64,000 bases of DNA from [Eubacterium] infirmum (GTDB lineage Bacteria; Bacillota; Clostridia; Peptostreptococcales; Anaerovoracaceae): positions 1 through 64,000 of the forward strand of contig UGGN01000002.1 in the NCBI GenBank assembly GCA_900450455.1, given 5' to 3'. The notes below the pieces were generated by a model, which saw only the letters and a list, made by a program, of their open reading frames with translations, was not told the DNA's origin and searched no databases. Shown piece by piece: positions 1 through 37,724 of the stretch. A program made the translations under genes and the position numbers. How positions within the stretch are numbered: position 1 is the first letter of the stretch; the number at the start of each line of letters is the position of its first letter.

Positions 1-36
1 TTTAGGAGAAATATTATCTATGATTAAGTTATAAAC

Positions 37-112
37 AAGGCTTGTGAAAGTCGCTTAAAAACGATTTTAGAGCCTTGTTTTTATGTGGAAAGGTATAGAG
101 ATGGATAAGAAA
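37..112 (+). repeat. Leader repeat copy 1 with stem-loop
   Basis: This leader is nearly identical to 2996-3069, running from AAGGCTT through the start region of the following gene (both begin ATG-RAT-AAG-AAA). An inverted repeat AAACAAGGCT (33-42) / AGCCTTGTTT (71-80), followed by a T-rich tract, makes a stem-loop. It could be a terminator for an upstream operon or a shared regulatory leader; the sequence does not decide. Confidence 0.75.
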
Positions 113-220
113 CAAAATGAGGAAGTAATATTTGTAGATACGGAAACTTTATCTGAAGAAGAAATGCTTCAGGGTGACAGTTATGAAAGAGAGGACGATT
201 CTGATGACGAAGAATTATAG
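101..220 (+). CDS. Small acidic protein upstream of ardC
   Basis: This is a 39-residue ORF starting at the ATG inside the leader repeat, with AAAGG about 10 bases upstream. The product is strongly acidic, ending in EREDDSDDEEL, and I do not recognise a family. It overlaps the start of the ardC remnant (ATG at 204), as translationally coupled genes often do. The same leader precedes the Toprim gene at 3058, which suggests the start is genuinely used. It could instead be the 5' stub of a longer decayed gene. Confidence 0.4.
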   Translation: MDKKQNEEVIFVDTETLSEEEMLQGDSYEREDDSDDEEL

Positions 221-1232
221 AGAAGAAATAGCTGATTTTTATCCTGGCACTCGATGAAGACCCGATTGATTTATTAAGGGATGGAATTTTTCGCAAACAG
301 GAAGTCCAATGAACTCTTTCACATATAAAGAGTATAGTGGAATTAACAAGCTTTATCTTAAAATAATTGAGGTAAAAAACGGTTATGGAGATAACAGATG
401 GCTTACATTTAAACAAATCCAGGACAAGGGGTATCATCTACAAAAGGGTGCTAAAGGTGCCAAGGTTGAATATTATATTCCATATGACAATAAAGAGAAG
501 AAGTGGATAAGCTTCGATGAATATAATAAATATTCTCGTGATCCTGAGTTTGATGACGAAAGATTTAGTTTAAAGCAAAGAATATATACAGTATTTAATG
601 CAAGCTTGATTGATGGAATAGAGTAGTTTAAGCCTTCATATACAGCCAATAAAATAAATGAAGAAGAGGTAATAGAGAGAATATCCGATAGTATAGGGGT
701 TAAATTGTTTGAAAGAAGAAATTCACAAAGTGCTTTTTATGATCCTGGAGAGGATTACATATTAATTCCTGAAAAGGAGCAATTTAAGTCACAAGAGGAC
801 TATTGTAGAACAGCGCTGCATGAACTATCTCATTCAACAGGGCATAAGGATAGACTTAATAGAGAGCAAAATAACAAATTCGGGAGCAAAAAATATGCCT
901 TCGAAGAATTAATTGCCGAAATATCATCAAGTTTTATGGGAGAATATATAGAAGAACCTTTAACAGATGAGATTCTAGATAAGCATAAAGCATATATTCA
1001 GAGCTGGGCAAAGGAAATTAGAAATAATAAAAATTTCCTTTTTAAGGCAATAAAAGAGGCTGAAAAGGCAGCAGATTATATGATTGAAAATGCACAGCTA
1101 TACCAATACAAGAAGGATAATATTATCAATATTGGAAGTTGCGATAAGGAAAATAATAATACGTTTACAGAAAAATGCCAGGAACAAGAAGTAATTTCTT
1201 TTTCAAAAGACGATGAGGAATTGGAGTTTTAA
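204..1232 (+). pseudogene. ardC: ArdC-like antirestriction protein, decayed
   Basis: ArdC-type proteins carry an N-terminal ssDNA-binding domain and a C-terminal zincin metallopeptidase domain, and they protect conjugating DNA. Both halves are visible. The N-terminal part reads GWNFSQTGSPMNSFTYKEY once frames are joined. The C-terminal part carries the zinc motif HELSHSTGH (about 830-856) with a downstream glutamate in FEELIAE. The reading frame is broken three times: an extra T in the run at 236-240, a missing base near 277-280 that restores the frame, and an in-frame TAG at 624-626. The frame stays open and conserved across the TAG, so this is recent decay or sequence error. A TTG at 705 could give a 175-residue protease-only product. 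The tail SKDDEELEF resembles the end of the Toprim protein at 4650. Confidence 0.8.
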
Positions 1233-2648
1233 ATGAACACTTATTTAACGCCCTTGCTATGGAAAATCAGCTTTATAGCTGTAGCAATATTTATAGTTAC
1301 TGCAATTTTAAAGCTAATTTATCTTAAGCTTAGCGGTAAACCTATAAGTAAAATAGCTGGAAAAGATACTGGTGCAAGAAATACTATATTAGGAAGTGGT
1401 CTTAAAAAAGCACTTTCCCCGCATGGTTTTATTTTTGGTTTTCTCAAGAAAAACAAAGTATATCTTGAGAATACTAAAGAAGGACACATTGCCATTTTCG
1501 GTGGCAGCGGTATAGGAAAGACTTCAGCGCTTCTTGTTCCTACGCTTAGAGCCTGGAATGCACCTTTCTTTTCAATAGATATTTCCGGCGATATATCAAA
1601 AAATGTAAAGCTTGCTTCTGAGGAAAAGATAATTATTGAGCCGGAAAACCCGGCAAATAGCGTTACATATAATGTTTTCTATCTTATTGATAAAGCTACT
1701 GATGAAAACGATAAAAGGACAATGCTTGAGCAGCTTGTTATGCTTATAGTAGACATACCATCAAATGCAAACGATGCTAACCTTTACTTTCTTGAAACTG
1801 CAAGGAAAATTTTTTTAGCAGGACTTCTTGCTTTTTATGATATTGGACTAGATTTTACAGATATCTGTAAAACTATATTTTTTAATAATATAAACGAGCT
1901 TGTTAAGCTTATTTCTGAAACTCAAAACGAACTTGCTTTAAGCTACATAAAGCCACTTGCAGGAGAGAACGAGAAAAATATCTCCGGAGCAAAATCAGCG
2001 CTTAATAACAAGATAAAGCTTTTTTCTGATAACGCAAATATGGAAAGTATTCTTTGTAGAGATTATCCAGGTAAAGAAAGCTTCAATCCTGGGATGATCG
2101 AAGAAAAGAAAATTTTTCTTAAAGTATCAGATAAAAAGCAGGAATACTATGCTCCGTTTATCCATATTGTAACAGCACAGCTGCTTGAATATATAGGAAG
2201 CAGAAAATTTGTTCCTGGAAAAGACGAAAGGATACTTCTTGCACTTGATGAATTTACAAGCCTTGGTCATTTTGATGTGCTTGCTCCATTTAGAAAGTTT
2301 AGAAAAAATGGATGTAACTTATGTATCCTAACACAGTCACTTGTGGATATAGATCTTGTTTACAGTGAAAAAGAGAGAAAGGTGATCCTTGATAACTCAA
2401 AATATATTGTTGTTCTTGACTCGACAGATAACAGCACAAGAGAATATTTTTCAAATCTGATTGGAAAGAAAGATGTAGACAAAAAAAGTATATCAAAAGG
2501 AAAGGGCGGAACAAGTACAAGTATAAGTACGCAAAGGGATTATGTAATTCAGCCAGAAGAGTGGAAGGAACTTGGCGATGATCTTATTGTTATACATAAG
2601 GCAGGATATTTAAGACTTAGGAAAAACTACTATTATAATGAAAAATAA
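1233..2648 (+). CDS. VirD4/TraG-type conjugative coupling protein
   Basis: Type IV coupling proteins are membrane ATPases that deliver the relaxase-DNA complex to the conjugation channel. The 471-residue product has an N-terminal membrane segment (about residues 8-30), a Walker A motif GGSGIGKTSA (about 92-101) and a Walker B-like LLALDEFTS (about 335), followed by a VirD4-style ILTQS motif. It is shorter than many TraG proteins (550-800), consistent with the minimal Firmicute form. The ATG abuts the ardC stop with no gap, so the two are one transcription unit. No relaxase or other channel gene is visible here; those would lie left of the window or be lost. Confidence 0.85.
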   Translation: MNTYLTPLLWKISFIAVAIFIVTAILKLIYLKLSGKPISKIAGKDTGARNTILGSGLKKALSPHGFIFGFLKKNKVYLENTKEGHIAIFGGSGIGKTSALLVPTLRAWNAPFFSIDISGDISKNVKLASEEKIIIEPENPANSVTYNVFYLIDKATDENDKRTMLEQLVMLIVDIPSNANDANLYFLETARKIFLAGLLAFYDIGLDFTDICKTIFFNNINELVKLISETQNELALSYIKPLAGENEKNISGAKSALNNKIKLFSDNANMESILCRDYPGKESFNPGMIEEKKIFLKVSDKKQEYYAPFIHIVTAQLLEYIGSRKFVPGKDERILLALDEFTSLGHFDVLAPFRKFRKNGCNLCILTQSLVDIDLVYSEKERKVILDNSKYIVVLDSTDNSTREYFSNLIGKKDVDKKSISKGKGGTSTSISTQRDYVIQPEEWKELGDDLIVIHKAGYLRLRKNYYYNEK

Positions 2649-2662
2649 GGAAAAAGTATAAG

Positions 2663-2974
2663 ATGAGTAAAAATGGAAAAGATAAATTGATATTAGACAA
2701 AGAAATAGAAGTTGTAACAAGTGATAATAAAAAAATCATCGGTAAGCTTGAAAAAATTAAGTACAAAGGTAAAGAAATTTACACATACACCTTAGGGCTT
2801 CCTGAAGAAACGCTTGGACATGTATGGAGCAAAGAAGAACGAAAAAGGCTTTATCAAGGCGAAGAAGTCAATGTAGATGGCTTTATTAGTGATAAGACCG
2901 GAAAGCCTTTTTCAGGAGTAGCTAAATGGGATTCCAAAGGAAATAAAATAATATTAGAGGATAAAAGTGAGTAG
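2663..2974 (+). CDS. Small DUF3945-like protein
   Basis: The 103-residue soluble protein carries the sequence GEEVNVDGFISDKTGKPFSG followed by KWDSKGNKI. This resembles the DUF3945-type module (a gf.sKktGkpFsA pattern) found in conjugative-element proteins, often beside topoisomerases or primases. It begins 14 bases after the coupling protein stop, with GGAAAAAG upstream. It has no signal peptide or membrane segment. Its position between the coupling protein and the Toprim protein suggests a DNA-processing accessory role, which is inference. Confidence 0.6.
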   Translation: MSKNGKDKLILDKEIEVVTSDNKKIIGKLEKIKYKGKEIYTYTLGLPEETLGHVWSKEERKRLYQGEEVNVDGFISDKTGKPFSGVAKWDSKGNKIILEDKSE

Positions 2975-2995
2975 AATAAATAGAATGTAAAGGAT

Positions 2996-3069
2996 AAGGC
3001 TTAAAAGTCGCTTAAAAACGATTTTAGAGCCTTGTTTTTATGTGGAAAGGTAAAGAGATGAATAAGAAA
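2996..3069 (+). repeat. Leader repeat copy 2
   Basis: This is the second copy of the leader at 37-112, with the same GTCGCTTAAAAACGATTTTA core and the same TTATGTGGAAAGGTA Shine-Dalgarno stretch. AAGGCT (2996-3001) can pair with AGCCTT (3028-3033). It lies directly before the Toprim gene start. A weaker third relative (GCTGCTTAAACACTAAAATA) lies near 4751-4770, upstream of the IS30 transposase. Confidence 0.75.
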
Positions 3070-4650
3070 GATTACATTGAACCTAACTTAGTTAAAATTG
3101 CAGCAGATCAGGATGTATTTGATATATTATCAAGAGATGGCGTGCCAATGAAGCTTACCTCAGGAGTGTATAGACATAGAGAACATGACAGTATGGTTAT
3201 ATCACCGGGGAAAGGTTTTTATTGGTTTTCGCAAGGGTACGGATCTAAAAATCCTATAGATTACTATATTAAGGTTGAAGGTATGCCTTTTACTACGGCA
3301 GCATACCATGTTCTTGAGGTGATGAACTATGATTTCACAAGAAAAGATATAGTAATATCAGATAGTTTTGCTGCAAATCCAAACTATATACACGGTGAAT
3401 TTTCTCTTCCGGAAAAGGCTGAGAATAACAAGAACGTCTATGCATATCTTACAAAAACAAGAGGGCTTAACAAAGATATTGTAAAAAGTCTTTTAGACAA
3501 AGGGCTTATTTACCAGGATAAAAAATACAATAACGCTGTTTTTGTAGGTAAAGACTATGACGGTAATATTGTAAGTGCTTTTAAGAGAAGTACAAGAACA
3601 TATGGAAACTCTAACTTCAAAAGTGGTGATGAATACGGTAGCATGAAAGAATATAGATTTAGAGTTGAAAACCATACAAATACTACAGTAAATGTATTTG
3701 AGAGTGAGATTGATCTTTTATCGTACCTTAGCATGCTTCCGGAGCTTGCAAGAAATGAAAACTATATAGCACTCGGTGGCGTAAGCGATAGAGCATTAAC
3801 TGCTTTTTTGGAAAGGAACGCTGCCATAGAACATATTAATATATGTACAGATAATGATAAGTATGGATATAGATTTTGCACAAAGATAGCAGAAACGATA
3901 GGTAAGGACTATTACATTACCCGGGAAATTCCAATAAATAAGGATTTTAACGAGGATTTAACAAAAGGCTTGCAATATGAAAGAAATAGAATAGATGTTA
4001 TAGTCTTCGATGACGCTACAAAGCAAATGACAAAAAAAGAAAAGATAAAGTATATTAATGAAATATTTAGCAATAAGTACCAGGGCATGCAGGTTGAGCT
4101 TCCGTTCCCTGATATAAACGCTTTTTCTGATAAAGAAAAAAATGCAAACATCAATAGAATCACTAATCACCATTTCAAACATATGGATAAAATTGAAAGC
4201 TATAAATCATATAAAACAAAATTAAATATAGGTGTTGAAAAGGACTTGGTTAATTTGATAGAAACATCGACGTATGTTGGAAGTAAGGAAGAAGCTAAAG
4301 AAAACCAAAATTCAATTCATAAAGCAACTGAAGGGTGGCATTACTTTAACAAACCTCTTATTATTGATGATTATATTTGCATGATGATAGTTGATATAAG
4401 AGAAAATAGTAATAATGATTTATTCGTACATAAGATAAGGCTAAAGGAAATAGAGTTTAACTTGTTAAATAGAAAAGATGGCGAGTTCTCCCAAACTCTC
4501 TTTACGAGAGCTTTAACCCGGGAGCAACCGCCATCAGATATATATAATAATAAATGTGATGGGAATAAAAGTCAAGACCTTAAGAAACAAAAAAAGAATG
4601 AAGATGAAGAATTTTTCCTTTCAAAAGATGAGGAGGAATTTGAATTTTAA
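3058..4650 (+). CDS. DUF3991/Toprim domain protein of a conjugative element
   Basis: The product is 530 residues from the ATG at 3058, chosen because GGAAAGG lies just upstream; an ATG 18 bases earlier is possible. The N-terminal 120 residues (SGVYRHREHDSMVISPGKGF, then FSQGYGSKNPIDYY) match the CHC2/DUF3991 zinc-finger-like primase region without the cysteines. A Toprim-like core follows, with VFESEIDLLSYLSM (about residue 215) and ICTDNDKYGYRF (about 265). Such proteins are taken to act in DNA processing or primer synthesis after transfer. The tail FLSKDEEEFEF mirrors the ArdC tail. The gene ends in a very strong terminator. Confidence 0.75.
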   Translation: MNKKDYIEPNLVKIAADQDVFDILSRDGVPMKLTSGVYRHREHDSMVISPGKGFYWFSQGYGSKNPIDYYIKVEGMPFTTAAYHVLEVMNYDFTRKDIVISDSFAANPNYIHGEFSLPEKAENNKNVYAYLTKTRGLNKDIVKSLLDKGLIYQDKKYNNAVFVGKDYDGNIVSAFKRSTRTYGNSNFKSGDEYGSMKEYRFRVENHTNTTVNVFESEIDLLSYLSMLPELARNENYIALGGVSDRALTAFLERNAAIEHINICTDNDKYGYRFCTKIAETIGKDYYITREIPINKDFNEDLTKGLQYERNRIDVIVFDDATKQMTKKEKIKYINEIFSNKYQGMQVELPFPDINAFSDKEKNANINRITNHHFKHMDKIESYKSYKTKLNIGVEKDLVNLIETSTYVGSKEEAKENQNSIHKATEGWHYFNKPLIIDDYICMMIVDIRENSNNDLFVHKIRLKEIEFNLLNRKDGEFSQTLFTRALTREQPPSDIYNNKCDGNKSQDLKKQKKNEDEEFFLSKDEEEFEF

Positions 4651-4695
4651 AAACGGCGGCATGTGAGAGTAATCTCATATGCCGCCGTTTTTTCG
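4651..4695 (+). terminator. Rho-independent terminator after Toprim gene
   Basis: AACGGCGGCAT-GTGAG pairs with CTCAT-ATGCCGCCGTT around a six-base loop. This gives a stem of about 16 bp with G-U pairs, followed by TTTTTT. It closes the mobile-element operon. Confidence 0.92.
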
Positions 4696-4856
4696 TTTTT
4701 AAGAAGATATATAATAAAAGCGAGTTGACTTATATACTAATATGGTTAAAGCTGCTTAAACACTAAAATAGAGGCTTGAAGGAATAGCATTATGTTATAG
4801 ACAAGGGAAAACCTTTTTTGTATAACGATAACAGGGGAAAATATTGGAGATGTTAT

Positions 4857-5915
4857 ATGAGAAAATTTAAGCACCTTGACTATTCAAAGAGACAGCAAAT
4901 CGAGCGTATGCTAAAGAAAAGATATACACCTTCCGAAATATCAAGCTGTCTTGATGTTGCACTTAGTACAATTTATCTTGAGATAAAGAGAGGTACTTGT
5001 GAGCAGTTGAAATCAGATTTAACCAAAGTAATGGAATATAAAGCCGATTTTGCACAATATAAATATGAAGCTAATCTTAAGAAAAAGGGAAGAAGAGCAA
5101 AGATAGAACGAGATCAAAAATTAAATAAGTACATATACAGCCTTATAAAGGATAAAAAGTATTCTCCTAAAGCCATTATATATGAGCTTATAAACAGTGG
5201 TATTAATTTTGATGAAAGTATCAAGTCATATACCACAATATATTCTGCTATAAAAAAAGGGTTTATTCCGGGAATTAAAAGAAAAGATTTACCGAGAGGA
5301 AAGTATAAGGTAAGGCTTCCTAAGGATAAAAAATACAAAAGAAATATCCCTGGTAAAAGCATTGAAGAAAGACCTTTAGAAGTGGATGAAAGAAAGGTTT
5401 TCGGTCACTGGGAAATGGATTGCGTTTTAGGCAAAAAGGAGAATAAGAAGGCAGCACTTGTTTTCACTGAAAGAAAAACAAGATATGAAATTATTGAAAA
5501 ATTAAAGTATCACACAACAGATGAAGTAGTAAAAGCATTGAATCGTGTTGAAAAAAGATGTAAGAGCAGCTTTTATACTGTGTTTAAATCTATTACTGTT
5601 GATAATGGACACGAATTTATGGATTGCAGTGCTATGGAAAAGGCTTTATATCGCAAAGGAAAGCGCACAGAAATATATTATTGCCACCCAAATTCTCCTG
5701 GAGAAAGAGGCAGTAATGAGAATTGTAATTTGCTTGTGAGGAGATTTCTCCACAAGGGTATGGATTTCGATAAATATCTTACAACTGTAAAAGCAAAAGA
5801 AGTTCAGGAATGGATCAACACATACCCAAGGGGAATACATAAAGGAAAAACTTCAAAAGAGCTTTTTATCACTGAACTTATAAAGCTCGGAGTGGCGCAT
5901 TATTACAGATGTTGA
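4857..5915 (+). CDS. IS30 family transposase
   Basis: The 352-residue product starts at the ATG at 4857, with TTGGAGA just upstream. The N-terminus is the IS30 helix-turn-helix (LDYSKRQQIERMLKKRYTPS, then STIYLEIKRG). The DDE catalytic residues are visible as D in GHWEMDCVLG, D in TVDNGHEFMD and E in RGSNENCNLLVRRF, followed by the usual HKGMDFDKY. The gene looks full-length and intact. I could not identify matching terminal inverted repeats, so the IS boundaries are not resolved. Confidence 0.92.
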   Translation: MRKFKHLDYSKRQQIERMLKKRYTPSEISSCLDVALSTIYLEIKRGTCEQLKSDLTKVMEYKADFAQYKYEANLKKKGRRAKIERDQKLNKYIYSLIKDKKYSPKAIIYELINSGINFDESIKSYTTIYSAIKKGFIPGIKRKDLPRGKYKVRLPKDKKYKRNIPGKSIEERPLEVDERKVFGHWEMDCVLGKKENKKAALVFTERKTRYEIIEKLKYHTTDEVVKALNRVEKRCKSSFYTVFKSITVDNGHEFMDCSAMEKALYRKGKRTEIYYCHPNSPGERGSNENCNLLVRRFLHKGMDFDKYLTTVKAKEVQEWINTYPRGIHKGKTSKELFITELIKLGVAHYYRC

Positions 5916-5977
5916 AGTAAATGTAAATGAATTTATAGTATCGAACAGTCAGAAATATATCACGAAAAAATAAAAAT

Positions 5978-6016
5978 CCTTGTATGAATCAATCTATACA
6001 AAAGGATTATTTATAA
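5978..6016 (+). terminator. Probable terminator after IS30
   Basis: ATCCTTGTAT pairs with ATACAAAAGGAT across a short loop, with a two-base bulge, and is followed by an AT-rich stretch. It sits about 65 bases beyond the IS30 transposase. The rest of 5916-6206 is AT-rich, with no gene that I can support. Confidence 0.45.
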
Positions 6017-6206
6017 TGCATAGAAATTACAAATAATCAGTGTTTAATTTAGTAATATGTTCTTAATTTTATATAAACAATTTGATAAACATTTGAGCGT
6101 GCTTATATAATAACTTTATCATATACATGATAAAAAAATTATAATATTATTTGAAAAAAATTCCGATTTAGTGTTGACATTTAATTACAGTTAAATTTTG
6201 GGAAAT

Positions 6207-6518
6207 TTAAGATGTAGATTTTTGATTGGTCGAAACGGAATAGTGTCTCTCGCGGATTTCCTTTATGGCCTTGCTGTAGTTTCCTTTTTTTAGGTCATCG
6301 AGATACTTGGACAGGAATTCCTCGGTGATGTCTTTTCCGTTCTTGTCCTCAACCTTAGAACTTACCGGATTTTGTTCAACCGCCTGTAGAACCTTGGTGA
6401 GTTCTTGATTATTAGCGTTTTGGGTGCGGAAATAATCAAAGCAAACTGTAGCGATTATTACTATAATGATAAATGTTGCTATAGCGATATTCTTCTTTGT
6501 TACTAAACTATATTTCAT
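6207..6518 (-). CDS. Small membrane-anchored protein, unknown function
   Basis: The 103-residue product has a short basic N-terminus (MKYSLVTKK), one strong transmembrane helix (about residues 10-28, IAIATFIIIVIIATVCF) and a charged extracytoplasmic tail with KDITEEFLSKYLDDLKKGNY. An AGAGGTG Shine-Dalgarno sequence lies upstream on the minus strand. I recognise no family. The KDI(T)EEF-KYLDDLKKGNY portion is reminiscent of small DUF4878-like exported proteins that track ongoing growth, but this is only a resemblance. Confidence 0.6.
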   Translation of the reverse strand: MKYSLVTKKNIAIATFIIIVIIATVCFDYFRTQNANNQELTKVLQAVEQNPVSSKVEDKNGKDITEEFLSKYLDDLKKGNYSKAIKEIRERHYSVSTNQKSTS

Positions 6519-6700
6519 AACAGCACCTCTCGTTACTCAAAGAAATATCTCAATCTATATGCATTATGTTTGGAAAGCGGAGTTTCCTTTTATTATTTTC
6601 ATATTACCCCTTGTTTTCGGAAAAATCAATACTATGACTAATTAATGATAATATTCTATTGTAATTCTACAGGCAATAGTTATACATGCCATCAGGCGTA

Positions 6701-6729
6701 TTGTTTCATACAGATAAATATGATATAAT
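6701..6729 (+). promoter_or_regulatory. Promoter of the B12-regulated surface protein
   Basis: TTGTTT (6701-6706), a 17-base spacer and TATAAT (6724-6729) form a good sigma-A promoter. It lies about 25 bases upstream of the start of the cobalamin riboswitch. Confidence 0.7.
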
Positions 6730-6754
6730 ATAAACAATTTAATACGTTGGATTT

Positions 6755-6925
6755 CAGTGCGGATTGGCGCGTGCCATGATGTTAAAAGGAAATCAGGTGA
6801 AAGTCCTGAGCAATCCGGTTACTGTAATCATCTTACTAATCCCCTAATTATGTCATTGCGCACGACGTGAGAAGGCGTGGGGAGATATGGGTGAGAGCCA
6901 GGAAACCTGCTGAATTTTGGTAAGT
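6755..6925 (+). promoter_or_regulatory. Cobalamin riboswitch
   Basis: The B12-box elements appear in order: GTGCC (6771-6775), TTAAAAGGAAA, GGTGAAAGTCCTGAGC, CCGGTTACTGTAATC, and the distal GAGCCAGGAAACCTGC near 6894-6910. This is the conserved cobalamin riboswitch skeleton that binds adenosyl- or other cobalamins and lowers downstream expression. The leader then runs about 170 bases to the surface protein start. The rest of 6519-7093 holds only this leader, its promoter and the terminator hairpin. Confidence 0.93.
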
Positions 6926-7051
6926 TCTTCCGAAGAAAGATAAGCTTGCTTTCCAGATTCAATAGTTGTTACAAAGTCGCTGTAGATTATTGGCTTAATG
7001 GATTTTATCATGACATCAAAGTTTAATGATGTTATGTGTTTTATAGTTTTG

Positions 7052-7083
7052 CTGCTCTCTTTTCGGAGGGCAGTTATTATTTT
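7052..7083 (+). terminator. Riboswitch expression-platform terminator
   Basis: CTGCTCTC pairs with GGAGGGCAG around TTTTC, with two G-U pairs, and is followed by TTATTATTTT. It lies between the riboswitch and the Shine-Dalgarno AGGAGA. It most likely works as the ligand-controlled terminator of the riboswitch. Confidence 0.7.
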
Positions 7084-7093
7084 AGGAGAAACT

Positions 7094-10000
7094 ATGAGGA
7101 AAAAAGGGAAGAGAAATTTTGAGCGCTTGATTGTAGCTCTGCTTGCGCTTGTAATCTGCATGTCAAACATCAGCTTTGATGCTATGGCTAATGAGGCGAA
7201 GACTTCAGCAAAAGAAGAGACGCTTAAGAGCGAAAAAAGTGCTGTCGAGCCGGAAAAACAGGAAGCACCTAAAAGCGAGAAAAGCGCTTCTGAGTCTAAA
7301 AAACCGGAAGTGATAAAAGGCAGTTTGGGAACAAGGGATGCGTCTATATACGATGAGAATGGCAAGCTTAAGGACGGAACCTATTCCGTAACGGCGAATA
7401 CAGACAGCTCCATGTTCGGTGTGACAAGCTGCAAGCTGTTAGTCCAAAATGGACAGATGAATGCGATAATGACCCTAAGAGGAATGGGCTTTAATAAAGT
7501 TTATATGGGTATGGCTGATGAGGCAAAAGCTGCGAAGGAAAGCGATATTATAGGAAGCATCCCGGACTATAGCGAAGAGACAAAGGGAAAGAGAACTTTT
7601 TGGAATATCCCTGTAGACGGATTTGATAAGGATATTACAATATCGGCCAGATCATCAAAGAAGCGCAAGTGGTATGACCATACCATAAGGTTTGAAAAGG
7701 ATTCTCTGAAGTTAATATCAAACAAGATCGAAAGTCCGACTCTTGAGCAGAACGCTCAGAAATATCTTTATCAAAACTTCATTGATGAAAAGATATTTAC
7801 AGCTAATGCGGATGTCATAAGCGTTTCCGGAGACAGTTATACCGTACCTTTCTTTGAGAAGGACGAAGCTACGGAGATAAGCAGCATAAAGTTTAAACAG
7901 AGCGATACCCCTGATTTTAAGCTTGGATGGCATGTATCGGATTGGAGTGTTTTTTCAAACAGGAAAAAGGATCTTCACGCAGCGAGCACTAAATCGCTGA
8001 AGATAAAGGATCGTTCAGCGGGGGATGTCGATTTTGATGTTACCCTCAAGATATACAATGGAAAGGATTTCAGCATAACCAGAAGCACCATTATGGACGA
8101 TAGTGCACCTGCGCTTGCAGAAAAGACCTTTCACATAAAGCTAAAGGGAGCGCCGGCACCGGTAGATGTTGCTTTTGATGTCAAAGACATCAAAACAGGA
8201 AAGTCTGTGCCGAATCCGACTATTAAAATTGAGGCACCCGATGGTACAGAGGTAAAGAGCGTAGGAAACGGAAAGTATAATCTCAAGGTAGGTGTAAAGT
8301 ATAGACTTGAGATAAGTGCACCGGGATATGTTGACAAGGACGGAAATGAAAAGCTTTCGGAAACACTGCGTGTCACAACTGCAGGCACGATAGAAAAACA
8401 GCTGCTTGCAGAAAAGGACAGTAAACACAAGGCTAAATTCCGAATAGTTGATAAGGGCAACAAAGCTATCAAAAATGCAAAGTTTGAAATCATCCACAAG
8501 GCAACAAATAAAAAGCTGGATGCGGAGGCTGACGGCAGTTATATTCTTAAGGATGACCAGGAATATGAATACACGGCAAGCGCAGACGGATATATATCAG
8601 ATAAAAACACAATAAAAATTACAGAGGACAAGGACATTGATGTAGTTCTGAGGGAGAATATAAAGATCTATAAGGCCAATTTCTGGTTTTATTCTCTGAC
8701 AACATACGAAAAATATAGCGGTGAATATGAACTTTCAGTGTACAGTAAAGACGGTGAGCGCAAGGAATATGTGCAGCCCGATTCAGAAGGGAAATATCCT
8801 CTCAAAAGGGATGTAAAATATTATTACGAAGCGAAAGTGCCAAACCACTATTTGACGGAGTACAATGAGATACCTGTTTCCTTTAACGGTGAAGATGAGA
8901 ACGTAGAGGTTCGTTTGGTAATAGATCAAACAGGAGATTATAAGCTGAGTCAGCAAATCGACAAGGCTAAGGACTATTTAAAAACAGTGGTCGTAGGTAC
9001 AAACCCGGGAGAATATCCACAAGGAGCAAAGGAAAAATTAGAAAAGGCAATAGCAGATGCGGAAACACTTCTGGCAAAGCAGGACGCAAGTCAAAAGGAT
9101 AAAGAAGATGGTGGTAAAAAGCTGGCAGAGGCGGTAGATGCATGCAAGAATGTGCAGAACTATGCAGAAATTGATGTTAAGGTAGTACTTCACATCAATA
9201 CGAAAAATAAGTTTAATTCGCCTGCACAAGTCATGACGCTCAAGGTAAGAGGAGACGAATGCCTCAAATACGGCTACCACAAATCGGCAATAGATGCCAA
9301 GAGAAATGTGACAGTGCTTGATATAGCATGTGCAGTTCATAGTAAACTATATGGAGAAGATTTCAAGAAAAATCCCGAGAATTATTTTGCATATGACTTC
9401 GTAATCAGCAAGATGTTCGCTGAGTTTAAAGATATGTATTTCTTTGCCGCAGTAGATAGCAAGAGTATAGAAAAAATTGAGAGAACTGTAGTGGGCTCGG
9501 GTTCAACGGTAACTTTGTCATCATATCCATCAAAAGAAAAAAATACACAGTTCCTTCATTTTAAAGAAAAAAATTTAAGTGCTTATGAGGGAGAAGAAGT
9601 GTCGCTCCATCTTTTGGGAGGAGAAGCATTGATATCCTTCAATGGATATGATAACCCTCAGCAGGGGTATAGGATTTGTTTTGAAAATGTCAATACAAAC
9701 AAAAGTTTTGAAACAAGTACAGCTACGGACAAAAACGGAGAAATCAAAGTCAAATTTCCGTCAGCCGGAACCTATAGAGTTAAAAGCGTTAAGAATGAGA
9801 AACAAAATAGCTTGCTTATGCCACAAATTGAGATAAAGGTTAAGGAAGATAAACCAACGCTTACTATCAGTGCGTCAAAGGACGGAATAAATGTTGATAA
9901 CGATGTTGTATTAGATAGGGATCATGACGATTCAATTACTTATATTCTTGATAAGTCAAAGGGAGTTGCATTAAGTGTGATTGACGGCAATTTTGCGAAC

Positions 10001-10405
10001 TTTACGAACTCTGAAGGCAAGGTCATGATAGATAATGTAGTTCTGAGAAGAGGTATAGACTATGAAGCGAGAGAAGGCAGCATTATCATATCTATAAAAA
10101 AAGAATATCTCAACACTCTGACGGCAGGTAAACATATAGTAAGAATATACGAGAAGAATGGGTATGCACAAGGGACAATAAATATTGCAAGAGCGCAAAA
10201 CAAGAAAGATGATGAGATCGGTGCAAACGACGGTCAGAAGAATGATAAACTGAATAAACCCGGGAATACAAGCGGGAATATCAATGGAAGAAAGGCATTT
10301 GTAAATACTGGAGATAGAGGTGGTTACAAATTATGGATAGGAATTGGTATTGCAGCAATAATTGTATTTTTAGGACTTGTTCTTGTGCGTAGAGATAAAA
10401 AGTAG
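7094..10405 (+). CDS. B12-riboswitch-controlled wall-anchored NEAT-like surface protein
   Basis: The start ATG at 7094 follows AGGAGA and opens a 1103-residue protein with a signal peptide (MRKKGKRNFERLIVALLALV, cleavage near DAMANEA). A lysine/glutamate linker follows, then a NEAT-like domain (about residues 90-200; KLKDGTYSVTANTDSSMFG). Next come several PEGA/carboxypeptidase-regulatory-like beta modules (about 330-590) and a helical FIVAR-like segment (about 610-690). A region with the pattern NVTVLDIACAVHSKLYG follows, recalling the DUF4430 fold of cobalamin-binding proteins, and then another beta domain. The C-terminus has a sortase-type signal, FVNTGD, then a membrane helix and RRDKK. 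The motif departs from LPxTG at its first two positions. Regulation by a cobalamin riboswitch points to corrinoid capture at the cell wall. The ligand is inferred, since NEAT domains classically bind haem. Confidence 0.8.
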   Translation: MRKKGKRNFERLIVALLALVICMSNISFDAMANEAKTSAKEETLKSEKSAVEPEKQEAPKSEKSASESKKPEVIKGSLGTRDASIYDENGKLKDGTYSVTANTDSSMFGVTSCKLLVQNGQMNAIMTLRGMGFNKVYMGMADEAKAAKESDIIGSIPDYSEETKGKRTFWNIPVDGFDKDITISARSSKKRKWYDHTIRFEKDSLKLISNKIESPTLEQNAQKYLYQNFIDEKIFTANADVISVSGDSYTVPFFEKDEATEISSIKFKQSDTPDFKLGWHVSDWSVFSNRKKDLHAASTKSLKIKDRSAGDVDFDVTLKIYNGKDFSITRSTIMDDSAPALAEKTFHIKLKGAPAPVDVAFDVKDIKTGKSVPNPTIKIEAPDGTEVKSVGNGKYNLKVGVKYRLEISAPGYVDKDGNEKLSETLRVTTAGTIEKQLLAEKDSKHKAKFRIVDKGNKAIKNAKFEIIHKATNKKLDAEADGSYILKDDQEYEYTASADGYISDKNTIKITEDKDIDVVLRENIKIYKANFWFYSLTTYEKYSGEYELSVYSKDGERKEYVQPDSEGKYPLKRDVKYYYEAKVPNHYLTEYNEIPVSFNGEDENVEVRLVIDQTGDYKLSQQIDKAKDYLKTVVVGTNPGEYPQGAKEKLEKAIADAETLLAKQDASQKDKEDGGKKLAEAVDACKNVQNYAEIDVKVVLHINTKNKFNSPAQVMTLKVRGDECLKYGYHKSAIDAKRNVTVLDIACAVHSKLYGEDFKKNPENYFAYDFVISKMFAEFKDMYFFAAVDSKSIEKIERTVVGSGSTVTLSSYPSKEKNTQFLHFKEKNLSAYEGEEVSLHLLGGEALISFNGYDNPQQGYRICFENVNTNKSFETSTATDKNGEIKVKFPSAGTYRVKSVKNEKQNSLLMPQIEIKVKEDKPTLTISASKDGINVDNDVVLDRDHDDSITYILDKSKGVALSVIDGNFANFTNSEGKVMIDNVVLRRGIDYEAREGSIIISIKKEYLNTLTAGKHIVRIYEKNGYAQGTINIARAQNKKDDEIGANDGQKNDKLNKPGNTSGNINGRKAFVNTGDRGGYKLWIGIGIAAIIVFLGLVLVRRDKK

Positions 10406-10460
10406 ATATATGGAAAGCTTTCAGTTAGTAGTTATAGGTTTATAGGATAAAAAGTAAATA

Positions 10461-10485
10461 GGGCTATAGGACAAAAAGTGTGTGT
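10461..10485 (+). repeat. IS1249-like left terminal inverted repeat
   Basis: These 25 bases, beginning GGGCTATAGGACAAAAAGTG, are a perfect inverted match to 11780-11804. A second, inner copy of the core GGACAAAAAGTGTGTGTG lies at 10557-10574, and a degenerate one (TATAGGATAAAAAGT) lies just outside at about 10441-10455. The five bases AAATA flank both outer ends. That may be chance, because IS256-group elements usually duplicate 8-9 bp. Confidence 0.85.
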
Positions 10486-10488
10486 AAA

Positions 10489-10535
10489 AACCGACATAAC
10501 AGTTGATATTTCAATAGTTATGTCGGTTTAATCTT
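10489..10535 (+). terminator. Terminator inside the IS left end
   Basis: AACCGACATAAC (10489-10500) pairs perfectly with GTTATGTCGGTT (10517-10528) and is followed by TAATCTTTTTT. It lies between the outer and inner copies of the IS end. It may have been the native terminator of the surface-protein gene, captured by the duplicated end, or a shield against readthrough into the transposase. Confidence 0.8.
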
Positions 10536-10655
10536 TTTTGAAAGAAGATTGAGGGTGGACAAAAAGTGTGTGTGAAAACTCTTTAAAATATTGGAATTTC
10601 AATGATAAAACGTGGTATATCTTCCTTAGAATCAGAGTTCTTGGAGGAATATATT

Positions 10656-11777
10656 ATGAAGCAGGTAAATTGTCCAATTTGTAATTGCAAATGTATAAAA
10701 CACGGTAAGATAAAATCTGGCTCTCAAAGGTGGTTTTGTAAGTCTTGTAAGTTAGCGTTTACGCCAAAGATAGATAATGATACTAAACAGCTTCAGCATT
10801 TCTTGGCTTGGTTATTCAGTAAAGAAGTACAAAGTAATATGTCAGGTGGTGGAAGAACTTTTAGAAGAAAAACCTCCAAGTTTTGGGATATATGGGTTAT
10901 GGCACCAAAGATTGAAAAATCAAAAGATGTACTGTATTTTGATGGTATATATCTATCGCGTAAATCGTGTATTTTGATATGTTGTGACAAAGAACATGTA
11001 TTAGGTTGGTACGTATGCAGATATGAGCATTCAGGAGCTTGGGAGGCTCTAATGAGTCGTATAGCAGAACCTAAGGTGGTTGTATCCGATGGTGGTAAAG
11101 GATTTAGAAAAGCACTTAAGAGAAAGTGGCCAAAGACAAAGCATCAAAGATGCGTATTTCACGTGTTTTCACAGGTTAAAAGATATACAACAAGTAGACC
11201 AAATACTTTAGCCGGGCTAGAGCTTTATGCACTGGCAAGGGATTTGTTTGATGTTAAAAGTATTGAAGACTCAAAGATATGGGTTGATCGTTTTACAGGT
11301 TGGATTGTCAAGCATAAACGTTTTTTAAGCGAAGTAACATATGATGAAAATGGAAAGATAAGACCTAAGCATGAAAGACTGATAAAGGCTGAAAAATCAA
11401 TGCTAAGACTACTTAATGATAATACTCTATTCACGTATCTTAATGAAGAATTAAGGGCTGAGTTTAAAATTCCATCGACAAACAATCGAATTGAAGGTGG
11501 TGTAAATGCTTGTCTTAGGGAGATGCTGCATAACCATAGGGGGTTATCTGTTGAGAGAAGAATTAAAGCGGTTTTTTGGTGGTGCTATATGCACTCACCA
11601 AAACCGCTTTCTGCTTCTGAGATATTAAAAACAATGCCTACAAACAAGAGCATAGATGATATTTACAAGAAGATGACTGCCAAGAAACAACTAGAAGATA
11701 CTATTCCTATGTGGGGTGATGCAGTTGTATGGAGCGAGCTACATCATTCGAGCAATTATCCGGTGTACTGGGATTAG
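10656..11777 (+). CDS. IS1249/IS256-type transposase
   Basis: The 373-residue product starts at the ATG at 10656, chosen over the upstream ATG at 10602 because TTGGAGGA precedes it. The N-terminal zinc ribbon has CPICNCKCIKHG and CKSC. The DDE core shows D in VLYFDGIYLS, D in VVVSDGGKGFRKAL with the typical QRCVFHVF following, and E in NNRIEGGVNACLREML. The length and motifs are complete, so the enzyme may be active. Confidence 0.92.
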   Translation: MKQVNCPICNCKCIKHGKIKSGSQRWFCKSCKLAFTPKIDNDTKQLQHFLAWLFSKEVQSNMSGGGRTFRRKTSKFWDIWVMAPKIEKSKDVLYFDGIYLSRKSCILICCDKEHVLGWYVCRYEHSGAWEALMSRIAEPKVVVSDGGKGFRKALKRKWPKTKHQRCVFHVFSQVKRYTTSRPNTLAGLELYALARDLFDVKSIEDSKIWVDRFTGWIVKHKRFLSEVTYDENGKIRPKHERLIKAEKSMLRLLNDNTLFTYLNEELRAEFKIPSTNNRIEGGVNACLREMLHNHRGLSVERRIKAVFWWCYMHSPKPLSASEILKTMPTNKSIDDIYKKMTAKKQLEDTIPMWGDAVVWSELHHSSNYPVYWD

Positions 11778-19091: not shown

Positions 19092-19610
19092 TTATTTTGA
19101 TATTTTTTGAAGCGGCTTCACTATCTGAGGTGCAATCAGTGAAAATGCAATTCCCTTTGCAATGCAGATTCCAAGCCTTGGAAGCAGAAGTCCGACAATC
19201 AAAGCGGGATAGTAGTATCCATAGATATGGCTGTCTATGTAGAGTGAAATCGTGTTGATTATCGTAATTAGAAGTTCTCCTGAAATTACGATGAAGAATG
19301 TCTGCTTGGTACTCAGTTTGAAGCCGTGGCGCTTTGCATAGTAGCCCACATACAGTCCGTAGAGGGTGTACGGTAGGATCCAAAGCGGTGTTGTAATGGT
19401 GACACCGAATTTGAGCAGCTGATAGATTATGGTACCAAGCGTGCCTATTGCAGCTCCGCTTAGTGGTCCAAATAACAATGCACCTATGAGAACGGGAAGG
19501 CTCTCAAAGGTAATCTTTAATCCCTGCGTTGAAATTGCAAGGAAGGCGAGGGTCGCGCATATAGCGGACAGCACTGAATTCAGCGTCATCTGTTTTGTGT
19601 TTGTTTTCAT
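19092..19610 (-). CDS. folT: Folate ECF transporter S component
   Basis: The product is 172 residues from the ATG at 19610, which is preceded by AAAGGAG. It is an integral membrane protein of about six helices with the ECF S-component features (SALCATLAFLAI-like first helix; LPVLIGALLFGPLSGAAIG). S components bind the vitamin and dock with the shared EcfAA'T module encoded elsewhere. Assignment to folate rests on the tetrahydrofolate riboswitch just upstream and the folC fusion just downstream, together with family resemblance. Longer upstream starts would read through the riboswitch and are rejected. Confidence 0.9.
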   Translation of the reverse strand: MKTNTKQMTLNSVLSAICATLAFLAISTQGLKITFESLPVLIGALLFGPLSGAAIGTLGTIIYQLLKFGVTITTPLWILPYTLYGLYVGYYAKRHGFKLSTKQTFFIVISGELLITIINTISLYIDSHIYGYYYPALIVGLLLPRLGICIAKGIAFSLIAPQIVKPLQKISK

Positions 19611-19656
19611 TAAAAAAACTCCTTTCATGGCTATGCCACAAAAGAAGAATCTAAAG

Positions 19657-19752
19657 TGGCAGCGGATGCGGAATTGGCACCGCAGGAATAAATTCCTTTC
19701 GTTCGCAGACAACTCCCATCCTGCGACACTTAACGCGCCAAATCCTACTCTG
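19657..19752 (-). promoter_or_regulatory. Tetrahydrofolate (THF) riboswitch
   Basis: Read on the minus strand, the region has the folT-type THF riboswitch order: AGAGTAG, then GGCGCGTTAAGTG, GGATGGGA, a TTGTC loop, ACGAAAGGAA, GCGGTGCC and the closing CGCATCCGCTGCCA. These match the conserved pseudoknotted aptamer that binds reduced folates. It ends about 45 bases before the folT start, so it probably acts on translation initiation or early termination. It would link folate salvage to the reduced folate level. Confidence 0.92.
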
Positions 19753-19783
19753 ACATTAAAATATTTAGTTAAAACTTGGTAGT

Positions 19784-30336: not shown

Positions 30337-30534
30337 ACTGAACCCTCCTTTCATAAGCTGGATACCTTTCTAATTAAAATATAACTTAATTTTAAAAAAA
30401 TGCAATATATTCTTGATAATGATTTATGTATTTGATAAAACCGGGGGTGTCTGCACTGCTAAAACCGGGGATTCAGGAAGTCTCGTTTATATTATTCCCT
30501 TGCGGAAAAGGGGCTATAAGATATATAATATATA

Positions 30535-30715
30535 TGCGAATATGTGCAGCAAAACAGAACTTCCGGGAATACGGTGAGAATCCGTAGCAGTCTGCGCTAC
30601 TGTATGGGGGACGATGATACAAGATGTCACTGTTTGGGAGCTTGCTGTGAGGCAAGATGCTTAGATGGGAAGACGTATCTCAGGATGAACCTAAGTCAGG
30701 ATACCGGATGTTTTG
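30535..30715 (+). promoter_or_regulatory. Cobalamin riboswitch (second copy)
   Basis: The conserved cobalamin aptamer elements are present: GGGAATACGGTGAGAATCCG (about 30564-30583), GCGCTACTGTATGGGGGACG and the distal AAGTCAGGATACCGG (about 30693-30707). The leader continues about 170 bases to the NEAT-like gene. A short hairpin ACGGT/ACCGT before TTATTTATTTTT (30809-30835) may be the terminator of the expression platform. The gap 30337-30882 holds nothing else that I can support. Confidence 0.93.
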
Positions 30716-30882
30716 CATTTAGATATTCAAAGCTTCGACAGTAAGGTTTTGATATTGTATCGCGTGTTTGTTCGGATGCAATTGAAATGTGGATACATTT
30801 ACCAGATGACGGTCGAAGTACCGTTATTTATTTTTGGGGCAAGGGTATTTGAGATACTCGGTTTATGAAAAGGAGAGAACAG

Positions 30883-31674
30883 GTGAGAAATTTTAGCAAG
30901 GCAATGAGAAGCTTGGCTGTGACAGCATTGCTGGCAGTTTTTATCATGGTAAGTGCGATTCCGTCATTTGCTGCGACCTATCAGGACGGAACATACAGCG
31001 TTCCCGTAAGTCTGAGCAAAGGAAGAATGTCACATAATGCCATAGTATCACCGTGTACGGTGACGGTATCCGGAGGACAGCTTTATGCAACTTTAGTATT
31101 TAAAAGAACTTCAGATAATGGAACACCAAAATATACATATCTAAGTACAGGTTTAGGAACTGTGTATCCGCAGCAATACGGACCACATGCACAGATATTC
31201 TACAATGTTCCTATTTCAGGATTAGGCAATATACCTGTGAAGATGGAGACGGAAGCAATGTCCGAATTATATGTCATTGACTACACAATTTATTTTGATG
31301 AATCGGCAATTCCCACAGTAGGTGGAGGAAGCTCGGGAACAAGCGAAAGCAGTACACCTGCTGTAAACAACTCAGATGGAAGCCACTCCAAGGCTTCGGA
31401 GAAGAAGGCTGAGGAGAAGAAAGAGGAAAAAGCTAAGGAGTCCGATAAGGACGGCAAGGAAAGCAAGAGCGGAGATAAAACGAAGGGCTCCAAGTCGAGA
31501 GACAAGTCTAAGAAGGACAATAAGAAGGGCAATCAAAACAAGAAGACGACAAAAGCAAATGCTGCAGCGGAAAAGAACAGCAAGCTACCGCTATATGTAG
31601 GAGGACTTGTCGTTTCAATTGCGGTTGCAGGTGTCGGTGTATTTATGTTGCTTAAGGGAAGGAAGATTAAATAG
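30883..31674 (+). CDS. Membrane-anchored NEAT-like protein of the corrinoid locus
   Basis: The GTG at 30883 is preferred because AAGGAGAG lies eight bases upstream; an ATG at 30865 lacks such a site. The 263-residue product has a signal peptide ending in PSFAATY. One NEAT-like domain follows (about residues 25-145, starting YQDGTYSVPVSLSKG, then NAIVSPCTVTVSGGQLYATL). A long Ser/Lys/Glu linker (about 150-230) leads to a C-terminal membrane helix with GRKIK. There is no sortase motif, so it would stay membrane-bound, below the wall-anchored protein at 7094-10405. Position behind a B12 riboswitch and before an ABC importer suggests it hands over corrinoid. Confidence 0.8.
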   Translation: MRNFSKAMRSLAVTALLAVFIMVSAIPSFAATYQDGTYSVPVSLSKGRMSHNAIVSPCTVTVSGGQLYATLVFKRTSDNGTPKYTYLSTGLGTVYPQQYGPHAQIFYNVPISGLGNIPVKMETEAMSELYVIDYTIYFDESAIPTVGGGSSGTSESSTPAVNNSDGSHSKASEKKAEEKKEEKAKESDKDGKESKSGDKTKGSKSRDKSKKDNKKGNQNKKTTKANAAAEKNSKLPLYVGGLVVSIAVAGVGVFMLLKGRKIK

Positions 31675-31675
31675 T

Positions 31676-32848
31676 ATGGCTAAGAAGAATCGTGCTATTT
31701 TAATAGGAGTAATCGGTCTTGCAGTTGCAATAGCTATAGGATGTATTATTTTGATATTTGCCGACCTCGGGTCAGGTGATTCAAAAGAGGGCGGTGCTCC
31801 TGTTATCGAAGGACTTAAGTTTCAGGAAAAGGTAAAGCTGAAATATGCAAATCAGTTTTCGATATATAAGTACAAGGGTGGATATGCATATTTGGAGATT
31901 GTCGATGGAGACAAGCTGCTCGTTGTGCCTAAGGGCAAGAAAGTTCCTAAGAATCTTGATAAGAATGTAATAGTTGTAAAACAGCCTCTGCAGAATACAT
32001 ACCTTGTTTCTACTGCTGTTATGGCACTGTTCGATTCGCTAGATGCACTTGACAACATCAAATTTGTGGGAACGAATCACTGGTATATAGAAAATGCAAA
32101 GAGAGCTGTCGAGGAGAAGAAGTGGATAAATGCGGGTAAGTACAACACGCCTGACTATGAGGCGTTGATTAATGGAAAGTGCGAGCTCGCCATCCAAAAC
32201 ACAATGATTCTTCATAATCCTGAGGTTAAGGAGAAACTTGTCGATCTTGGGATTAAGACTATGATTGAAAAATCAAGCTATGAGTCACATCCGCTTGGAA
32301 GAACTGAGTGGATAAAGTTCTTCGGTGTACTTCTAGATAAGGAAGAACTGGCGAACAAGGTCTTTGATGAGGAAGCGGCAAAGGTTGAAAAACTCGAAAA
32401 CACCAAGTCCACAGGCAAGAAGGTAATATTTTTCTACGTGAATACTAGAGGTAATGTAGTAACATATAAGTCTAAGGGCTATGTTCCTGAGATGATTAAA
32501 ATTGCCGGAGGCAAGTACGCATTCTCTGACCTTGGAAAGGAAGAGGACAACAAGCTCAGTACAATAAACATGAGCATGGAGGAGTTCTACAATACAGCAA
32601 AGGATGCTGACATACTCATATACAACTGTAGCATAGTTGAGCAGATTCATACGCTCGACGAGCTATTTGAAAAAAGTCCGGTTCTGAAGGACTTTAAGGC
32701 AGTCAAAGAGGGAAATGCTTGGTGTACAAGCCGCAGCATGTTCCAGCAGACAAATAAGATGGGAAGCATTATACAGGAGATGAACGCAATATTCTCGGGA
32801 GACAAGGAAGCTCAGAAGAAGATGGAATACCTGTTTAAGCTAAAGTAA
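31676..32848 (+). CDS. ABC transporter substrate-binding protein (corrinoid/iron-siderophore type)
   Basis: The 390-residue product starts at the ATG at 31676, one base after the upstream stop. It has an N-terminal hydrophobic anchor (about residues 8-30), with only a poor lipobox (AIGC). The class III periplasmic-binding fold follows: NTYLVSTAVMALFDSLDALD, then IKFVGTNHWYIENAKRAV, AIQNTMILHNPEVKEKL and a C-terminal helical lobe. This is the BtuF/FhuD/FepB type. The riboswitch argues for corrinoids over iron chelates. Confidence 0.85.
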   Translation: MAKKNRAILIGVIGLAVAIAIGCIILIFADLGSGDSKEGGAPVIEGLKFQEKVKLKYANQFSIYKYKGGYAYLEIVDGDKLLVVPKGKKVPKNLDKNVIVVKQPLQNTYLVSTAVMALFDSLDALDNIKFVGTNHWYIENAKRAVEEKKWINAGKYNTPDYEALINGKCELAIQNTMILHNPEVKEKLVDLGIKTMIEKSSYESHPLGRTEWIKFFGVLLDKEELANKVFDEEAAKVEKLENTKSTGKKVIFFYVNTRGNVVTYKSKGYVPEMIKIAGGKYAFSDLGKEEDNKLSTINMSMEEFYNTAKDADILIYNCSIVEQIHTLDELFEKSPVLKDFKAVKEGNAWCTSRSMFQQTNKMGSIIQEMNAIFSGDKEAQKKMEYLFKLK

Positions 32849-37590: not shown

Positions 37591-37724
37591 CTTTGTAATT
37601 AGAGTATGGGCAGCACTGTCTATCATATCCAAGATTGATAAAAATTGTGAGCATAAAGGCTTTACTTATATAAATATTCTGTTAAAATAGAAATGTATAG
37701 ACTTTGTATAAAGGTGGTGAAATT

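Follow-up and report, generated by a model that had tools for sequence, protein, structure and literature searches.

Why should the gene for a large wall protein stand behind a riboswitch for vitamin B12? The question is raised by P0001, a protein of 1103 residues encoded in a stretch of 64,000 nucleotides of [Eubacterium] infirmum DNA (contig UGGN01000002.1, positions 1 to 64,000 of the forward strand; hereafter the window). It bears on how B12 passes through the thick Gram-positive wall, a little-known matter; an excerpt of PMC8941943 likewise describes cobamide acquisition in Firmicutes as little known. We found that P0001 carries a domain with a predicted NEAT fold, of a type that has lost the haem-ligand tyrosine, and that genes of this type mostly stand behind cobalamin riboswitches and are linked, and in some loci fused, to BtuF. 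We consider it likely that P0001 is the outer wall part of a relay from the wall to an ATP-binding cassette (ABC) transporter, similar to the Isd haem relay, but adapted to corrinoids (or to a precursor of B12) and under the control of B12 in place of iron.

The P0001 gene and its NEAT domain

The locus comprises the following features:
6738-6928, + strand: cobalamin riboswitch aptamer of the P0001 gene (RF00174, model positions 1-189, full length)
7009-7036 and 7051-7074, + strand: two hairpins directly upstream of the ribosome-binding site, candidate expression platform
7094-10405, + strand: P0001, predicted exported wall protein, 1103 residues (open frame, AGGAG at 7084-7088)
7364-7708, + strand: NEAT domain by predicted fold, P0001 residues ~91-205 (AlphaFold2, VIA-align, sequence profile)
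8441-8650, + strand: carboxypeptidase-regulatory-like (prealbumin-type) repeat, residues 450-519 (PF13620)
9164-9613, + strand: region with a possible DUF4430-like fold, unproven, residues ~691-840 (profile comparison)
10301-10402, + strand: sorting-signal-like C-terminus, residues 1070-1103 (VNTGD, hydrophobic stretch, basic tail)

The Rfam covariance model RF00174 scored the aptamer at 79.3 bits, well above its gathering score of 31.5, which bears out the cobalamin riboswitch proposed in an earlier sequence-only reading of the window; its start, 6738, lies 17 nt upstream of the position 6755 given there. The aptamer ends 165 nt upstream of the P0001 start and, from this position, would control the P0001 gene. 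Cobalamin riboswitches are usually OFF-switches whose genes are expressed when B12 is scarce, and P0001 would be B12-repressed. The two hairpins are present, and the strong one at 7051-7074 is followed by the T-rich tail TATTATTTTA; terminator-like sites over positions 5900-10700, both strands, numbered 9 as compared with 2.5 in shuffles. Because no clear antiterminator pairing was found when it was sought in the P0001 leader (the best was 7 nt), the hairpin that had been read as a terminator is treated here as a putative one.

The P0001 frame starts with the ATG at 7094, ends with the stop at 10405 and is open further upstream, to an ATG at 6998 (1135 amino acids). Its N-terminus contains a signal-like segment. 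At the C-terminus VNTGD is followed by a hydrophobic stretch and RRDKK, a variant and not the canonical LPXTG signal, and the anchor models of Pfam and NCBIfam gave no match to P0001. Similar C-terminal ends were observed in five more riboswitch-linked proteins, with NTGD in those of loci L020, L023, L026 and L028b and LTGD in that of L021. P0001 may be anchored in the wall with the help of a sortase. Pfam detected the PF13620 repeat (49.2 bits, cut-off 32.3) and neither NEAT nor DUF4430 in P0001.

Since Pfam and NCBIfam miss the NEAT domain, fold and profile comparison was required. No match of PF05031, the Pfam NEAT model, to P0001 was obtained even at E ≤ 1, and three relatives scored 17.7, 26.1 and 26.4 bits against its cut-off of 32.8. 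The alignment and model input consisted of the P0001 domain and 70 relatives, namely the window's second NEAT protein together with 69 of the 80 loci from named genomes described below, 11 loci being left out. The AlphaFold2 model around residues 91-205 reached a predicted local distance difference test score (pLDDT) of 92.2 and a predicted template modelling score of 0.83. When the Protein Data Bank (PDB) was searched with this model, three of 654 matches (E up to 10) had E ≤ 0.001 and all three were NEAT domains: IsdX1, represented by two chains, and Hbp2 NEAT2, represented by one. Alignment by VIA-align gave Z 10.4 over 105 residues with IsdX1 (3sik; root-mean-square deviation 2.7), Z 9.8 with IsdX2 NEAT5 (4h8p) and Z 9.7 with Hbp2 (4myp), and the profile of the 71 NEAT sequences found IsdX2 NEAT5 at E 7.7e-5. 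By its modelled fold, a NEAT beta-sandwich, the segment is a NEAT domain, and the NEAT-like domain that the sequence-only reading had placed in residues 90-210, with AlphaFold as the proposed check, is borne out at fold level. No corrinoid binder occurred among the fold-search matches listed, a result that excludes nothing.

In NEAT domains the first tyrosine of the YxxxY motif coordinates haem and the second forms a hydrogen bond to it, as stated in an excerpt of PMC5026354. The column of the first tyrosine aligned with lysine 190 of P0001, in a register taken from one profile alignment. Across the 71 sequences this column held lysine in 67, arginine in three and glutamate in one, and tyrosine in none; the second tyrosine was kept in 70. 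Without this ligand, haem chemistry of the ordinary kind is less likely, as judged from the alignment.

The sequence-only reading had also seen a DUF4430-like region in P0001, and this part was not confirmed. Comparison of residues 691-840 with a DUF4430 profile gave P 0.13 for P0001 alone and P 5.6e-4 together with three homologues, the best control window reaching 0.035. PF14478 gave no Pfam match on these residues, the best E in a PDB profile search with the region was only 0.82, and the single-sequence structure model was unusable (pLDDT 46.4); a search of viral contigs for homologues to deepen the model yielded none. A DUF4430 region in P0001 is therefore possible and unproven.

Genes and riboswitches linked to the NEAT type

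About 20 kb from the P0001 unit, the window contains a second riboswitch-linked NEAT unit:
30523-30728, + strand: second cobalamin riboswitch (RF00174, 68.7 bits)
30865-31674, + strand: small, predicted membrane-anchored NEAT protein, 269 amino acids, second NEAT type (match to the NEAT alignment profiles of this analysis)
31673-32848, + strand: BtuF-like substrate-binding protein (PF01497, 112.9 bits)
32860-33897, + strand: BtuC-like permease (PF01032, 269.5 bits; top NCBIfam match a BtuC model, below cut-off)
33907-35007, + strand: BtuD-like ATPase (PF00005, 93.8 bits; top NCBIfam match a corrinoid ABC transporter ATPase, below cut-off)

The leader of this operon contains an 8-nt candidate antiterminator in which 30732 pairs with 30812. 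The NEAT protein is undetected by Pfam and is itself a member of one of the NEAT seed alignments that match it. Pfam found the FecCD permease, the ABC ATPase and the Peripla_BP_2 binding protein together in the operon. The sole NCBIfam match of the BtuF-like protein was IsdE, at 30.2 bits against a cut-off of 298.65. The operon contains no CbiK gene.

Linkage of the same kind was observed in other genomes. Among named genomes 193 relatives were found, of which the best 80 were kept, mostly from Lachnospiraceae and other Clostridia. These 80 loci were found with ten query sequences, several of them CbiK-linked (own genome, G008, G032, G007), so their CbiK linkage is partly built in, but the BtuFC linkage and the riboswitch position are not. 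A cobalamin riboswitch upstream on the same strand was detected by covariance model in 61 of the 80 loci and in 54 of the 64 that had at least 2.2 kb of upstream sequence; downstream, none was found in the 72 loci with at least 2.2 kb on that side. A first riboswitch motif recovered only four of the 15 sites known from the own genome and matched no locus among 80 shuffled ones; loci selected by it supplied 22 of the 26 sequences on which model R1 was trained. BtuF or BtuC flanked the NEAT gene in 68 of the 71 loci with at least 2.5 kb downstream, on the downstream side in 59, and CbiK lay directly upstream of it in 67 of the 70 with at least 1.5 kb upstream. NEAT and BtuF shared a single open frame in seven loci (L132, L135, L087, L096, L138, L120, L097), six times in the order P0001-type NEAT, second-type NEAT, BtuF. 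Of all the sequence evidence, these fusions speak most strongly for a NEAT domain that serves the ligand of BtuF. CbiK and NEAT were joined in one frame in two loci (L149 and L145). The CbiK gene L018:515-1408, identified by a Pfam match, is under a riboswitch and encodes a lipoprotein-type leader. By eye, a second CbiK-like frame was seen at L059:5824-6636, near frames resembling hemC, cobA-hemD and cbiL and near a NEAT protein.

We also searched P0001 in 197 family genomes, its own included, scoring at most three candidate places per genome, and obtained a match at E ≤ 1e-5 in 57. Full-length homologues (at least 825 residues matched) were found in four other genomes, G085, G016, G118 and G170, all under a cobalamin riboswitch. 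In G085 a riboswitch of 97.4 bits lies directly upstream of the homologue and is followed, beyond it, by a second riboswitch, a NEAT protein, BtuF and BtuC; in G016 the riboswitch directly upstream scored 30.8 bits (E 1.3e-5), slightly below the cut-off of 31.5. In G118 and G170 the homologue ends an array of riboswitch, small NEAT, BtuF, BtuC, BtuD and NEAT wall protein, with no CbiK. In G007, G009 and G011 a wall protein of 987-1419 residues with four to six NEAT matches, some of them weak, sits between the riboswitch and small NEAT-BtuF-BtuC-BtuD, so that in these three genomes and in G118 and G170 a wall NEAT is encoded together with binding protein, permease and ATPase. A pair of tandem c-di-GMP-I riboswitches was observed in G016 (L066:10876-11109), some kb past a cobalamin-riboswitch-linked NEAT gene.

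A three-sequence NEAT profile run on 61 genomes (the own and 60 relatives) gave 41 rows in 15 genomes, and 32 of these rows had a cobalamin riboswitch on the same strand within 5 kb upstream and none had one downstream. The rows of one protein or one genus are not independent, and the underlying riboswitch list of at least 174 places leaves out the weak sites of most genomes. The idea that NEAT genes lie near riboswitches by chance, riboswitches being numerous, was rejected on the downstream controls (0/41 and 0/72). With the same riboswitch list, DUF4430 rows were linked more loosely than NEAT rows, having a cobalamin riboswitch within 5 kb upstream in 26 of 87 cases and downstream in six. 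Matches to DUF4430 some 290-355 nt past cobalamin riboswitches were also seen in other families of the order (G044:C62, G055:C33, G047:C48, G058:C307, G060:C17, G042:C1 and G053:C86).

P0001 is one of a set of riboswitch-linked surface proteins in its genome (1.9 Mb, two contigs). The genome gave 15 cobalamin riboswitch matches, 13 of them above the cut-off, and the frames downstream of all 15 were read. Nine of the 13 precede surface-type proteins of 873-1791 residues, P0001 and eight others. Of the other four, one precedes the NEAT-BtuFCD operon and one a CbiK-NEAT-cbi operon; the remaining two stand before a TIM-barrel gene and before a methyltransferase accompanied by Opp/Nik-like transporter genes. 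The two sub-cut-off matches lie before a 1297-residue frame and before frames of 330 and then 1198 residues. The binomial probability of nine large proteins in 13 was 3e-11, on a crude background (two of 60 window frames with at least 850 residues). A riboswitch below the cut-off was also sought for the 657-residue NEAT protein of L060, where a candidate with 19.1 bits to RF01482 (E 0.6) was not accepted.

The riboswitch-linked surface-type proteins of L019-L028 (G000:C2) carry CWB2, leucine-rich, GLUG, DUF4430 or SHIRT domains. CWB2 wall-binding repeats form the C-terminal end in L019, L022, L025 and L027. DUF4430 was detected above the Pfam cut-off in L020, L026 and L028b, the last behind a sub-cut-off riboswitch, and slightly below it in L021; the protein of L023 was covered by the DUF4430 profile built in this analysis, which includes that protein. 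The 1311-residue CWB2 protein at L025:6512-10447 showed a weak match to the prenyltransferase alpha-toroid (23.0 bits, cut-off 26.5), which we take to be the fold type of the transcobalamin N-terminal domain. In the relative G008, whose genome is a single contig, five of ten above-cut-off riboswitches (seven of 12 overall) are followed by surface-type proteins with 646 residues or more. Of these proteins, six are orthologous to members of the own-genome regulon, with ~77-87% identity over most of their length, and one is a NEAT protein.

A candidate corrinoid relay and the rival explanations

In the relay that we propose, the riboswitch would permit P0001 expression when B12 is scarce, and P0001 would be exported and attached to the wall, where its NEAT domain would take up a corrinoid, or a close B12 precursor, from the surroundings and hand it over to the membrane-anchored NEAT protein encoded at 30865-31674, which would pass it to BtuF and then to the BtuCD transporter, from an operon likewise under a cobalamin riboswitch. 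The domain order of the NEAT-NEAT-BtuF fusions agrees with such a passage from wall NEAT to membrane NEAT to BtuF. The surface capture of corrinoids suggested by the sequence-only reading draws good support from its context, from the partner operon with its own riboswitch, from the four riboswitch-linked homologues and from the NEAT-BtuF fusions; the DUF4430 part of the suggestion was not established.

The Isd haem relay of Gram-positive bacteria consists of wall-anchored NEAT proteins, the IsdE lipoprotein and the IsdF permease. The system described here resembles it in having a wall-type NEAT, a membrane-near NEAT, a Peripla_BP_2 binding protein and a FecCD-family permease. It differs in that Isd is controlled by iron through Fur while the present operons are under cobalamin riboswitches (Fur boxes were not searched for), in the change of the ligand tyrosine to lysine or arginine and in the frequent linkage to CbiK and the occasional fusion to BtuF. 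Since the test for an Isd-type ligand tyrosine failed, we do not file the P0001 system as a haem system. The window operon encodes homologues of BtuF, BtuC and BtuD but its proteins score below the NCBIfam equivalog cut-offs, and a NEAT gene, elsewhere CbiK and NEAT, precedes them. The DUF4430 family (PF14478), presumably related to the C-terminal domain of transcobalamin and intrinsic factor, is present in several other surface proteins that this genome encodes behind riboswitches and is unproven in P0001. In proposed function only, P0001 resembles BtuG and BtuH of Bacteroidetes, which capture B12 at the surface and belong to transport loci with cobamide riboswitches; those are Gram-negative lipoproteins that feed BtuB and are not described as NEAT proteins in the excerpt of PMC8941943, unlike the Gram-positive wall-type NEAT proteins considered here.

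An excerpt of a 2013 survey of cobalamin-riboswitch regulons (PMC3766115) reports 535 sites in 197 genomes, in four classes: synthesis, B12 transport, cobalt transport and isozymes. Operons for synthesis and transport are common to that survey and to our data, but surface proteins are absent from its four classes, whereas the single 1.9-Mb genome studied here has 13 sites above the cut-off, nine of them before large surface-type proteins. No description of NEAT proteins under cobalamin riboswitches was found in the excerpts of open-access literature searched.

Several observations weigh against a corrinoid relay. All of the best-matching solved structures are NEAT domains of haem systems. The NEAT domains of Clostridium perfringens ChtD and ChtE lack both tyrosines and nevertheless bind haem, and these two domains may coordinate it in another way, according to the excerpt of PMC5026354; haem could therefore be the ligand despite the loss of the tyrosine. 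In the related operons the lipoprotein-type leader of CbiK could be a sign that the cell handles a non-corrin tetrapyrrole, or cobalt, on its outside. The riboswitch is not universal either: of the 64 named loci for which 2.2 kb upstream were available, ten lack it, and nine of the 41 NEAT rows have none within 5 kb; no riboswitch above the cut-off was found for the NEAT protein of L059 in the own genome, near the second CbiK-like gene, and none for those of L060 and L061. The homologues of G118 and G170 had none directly before them, so that their riboswitch link is that of a same-strand array only, and the gaps of ~95-231 nt upstream of the last two genes could hide promoters. No full-length P0001 homologue was found in the congeners G007, G008, G009 and G012.

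The main rival, to which we assign a low probability, is a NEAT relay for haem or another non-corrin tetrapyrrole (a porphyrin, sirohydrochlorin or a cobalt-loaded intermediate from exported CbiK) that would serve as raw material when B12 is short. It is the main rival because CbiK looks exported and the best-matching structures come from haem systems. CbiK, of the tetrapyrrole chelatase family, stands upstream of NEAT in nearly all of the named loci and is fused to it in two, and the only NCBIfam match of the window BtuF is IsdE, although far below its cut-off. Against this, the operons concerned are under cobalamin riboswitches, BtuC and BtuD are best matched by models of B12 transporters, no tyrosine occupies the haem-ligand position in any of the 71 sequences, and NEAT-BtuFCD occurs without CbiK both in the window operon and in the arrays of two full-length homologues. 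That P0001 is an adhesin or a wall-remodelling protein, with B12 merely an environmental cue timing its expression, seems to us improbable. Other surface proteins of the regulon do carry leucine-rich, GLUG, CWB2 and immunoglobulin-like modules with no obvious corrinoid function, but the P0001 NEAT is of the kind linked and fused to BtuF, its homologues adjoin BtuFCD, and several other members of the regulon match DUF4430. We give very little credence to the idea that the system collects cobalt ions needed to make B12. Opp/Nik-like transporter genes occur in one operon of the regulon, another has a cbi gene set, and CbiK belongs to a cobalt chelatase family; yet the ligands of NEAT and BtuFCD-type proteins are tetrapyrroles or siderophore-like compounds and not bare metal, and the Opp/Nik-like operon is the better candidate for the uptake of cobalt.

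Returning to the corrinoid relay, we put at about even chances a wider proposal, that a corrinoid-specific NEAT branch, in which lysine replaces the haem-ligand tyrosine, makes up B12 relays from wall to membrane across the Clostridia. In this lineage the branch would belong to a regulon under cobalamin riboswitches that comprises about ten giant surface proteins, of which several have DUF4430 or alpha-toroid domains resembling transcobalamin; together they would form a Gram-positive surface apparatus for B12 capture. A NEAT relay for corrinoids would mean that a fold known from the theft of haem now serves a different tetrapyrrole; it would identify, for many Clostridia, the outer components that B12 uptake has lacked so far, and one shared RNA switch would account for a set of giant unannotated surface proteins.

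Other features of the window

P0001 is adjoined by a transposase gene:
10602-11777: transposase gene adjoining P0001

The DNA of this gene matched 18 genome places including its own, with at least 885 bases each, and in L022, too, a copy follows the surface gene that is linked to a riboswitch. Because of these 18 places its adjacency to P0001 means little, and it was dropped as a clue to P0001 mobility. P0001 gave no match at E ≤ 1e-5 in 72,556 plasmid records, and the DNA upstream of it (1-6700) gave one weak match. By eye, positions 1-5915, just short of P0001, contain conjugative-element-like genes, with a VirD4-like gene at 1233-2648 and its neighbours, and an IS30-like transposase at 4818-5915. 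A large surface-type protein and a SpaA-type pilin-like frame, with no cobalamin riboswitch, occupy 37704-41959. On the minus strand, a tetrahydrofolate riboswitch (19658-19754, 83.4 bits) stands at the start of the frame of a small membrane protein, perhaps a folate transporter (19092-19712).

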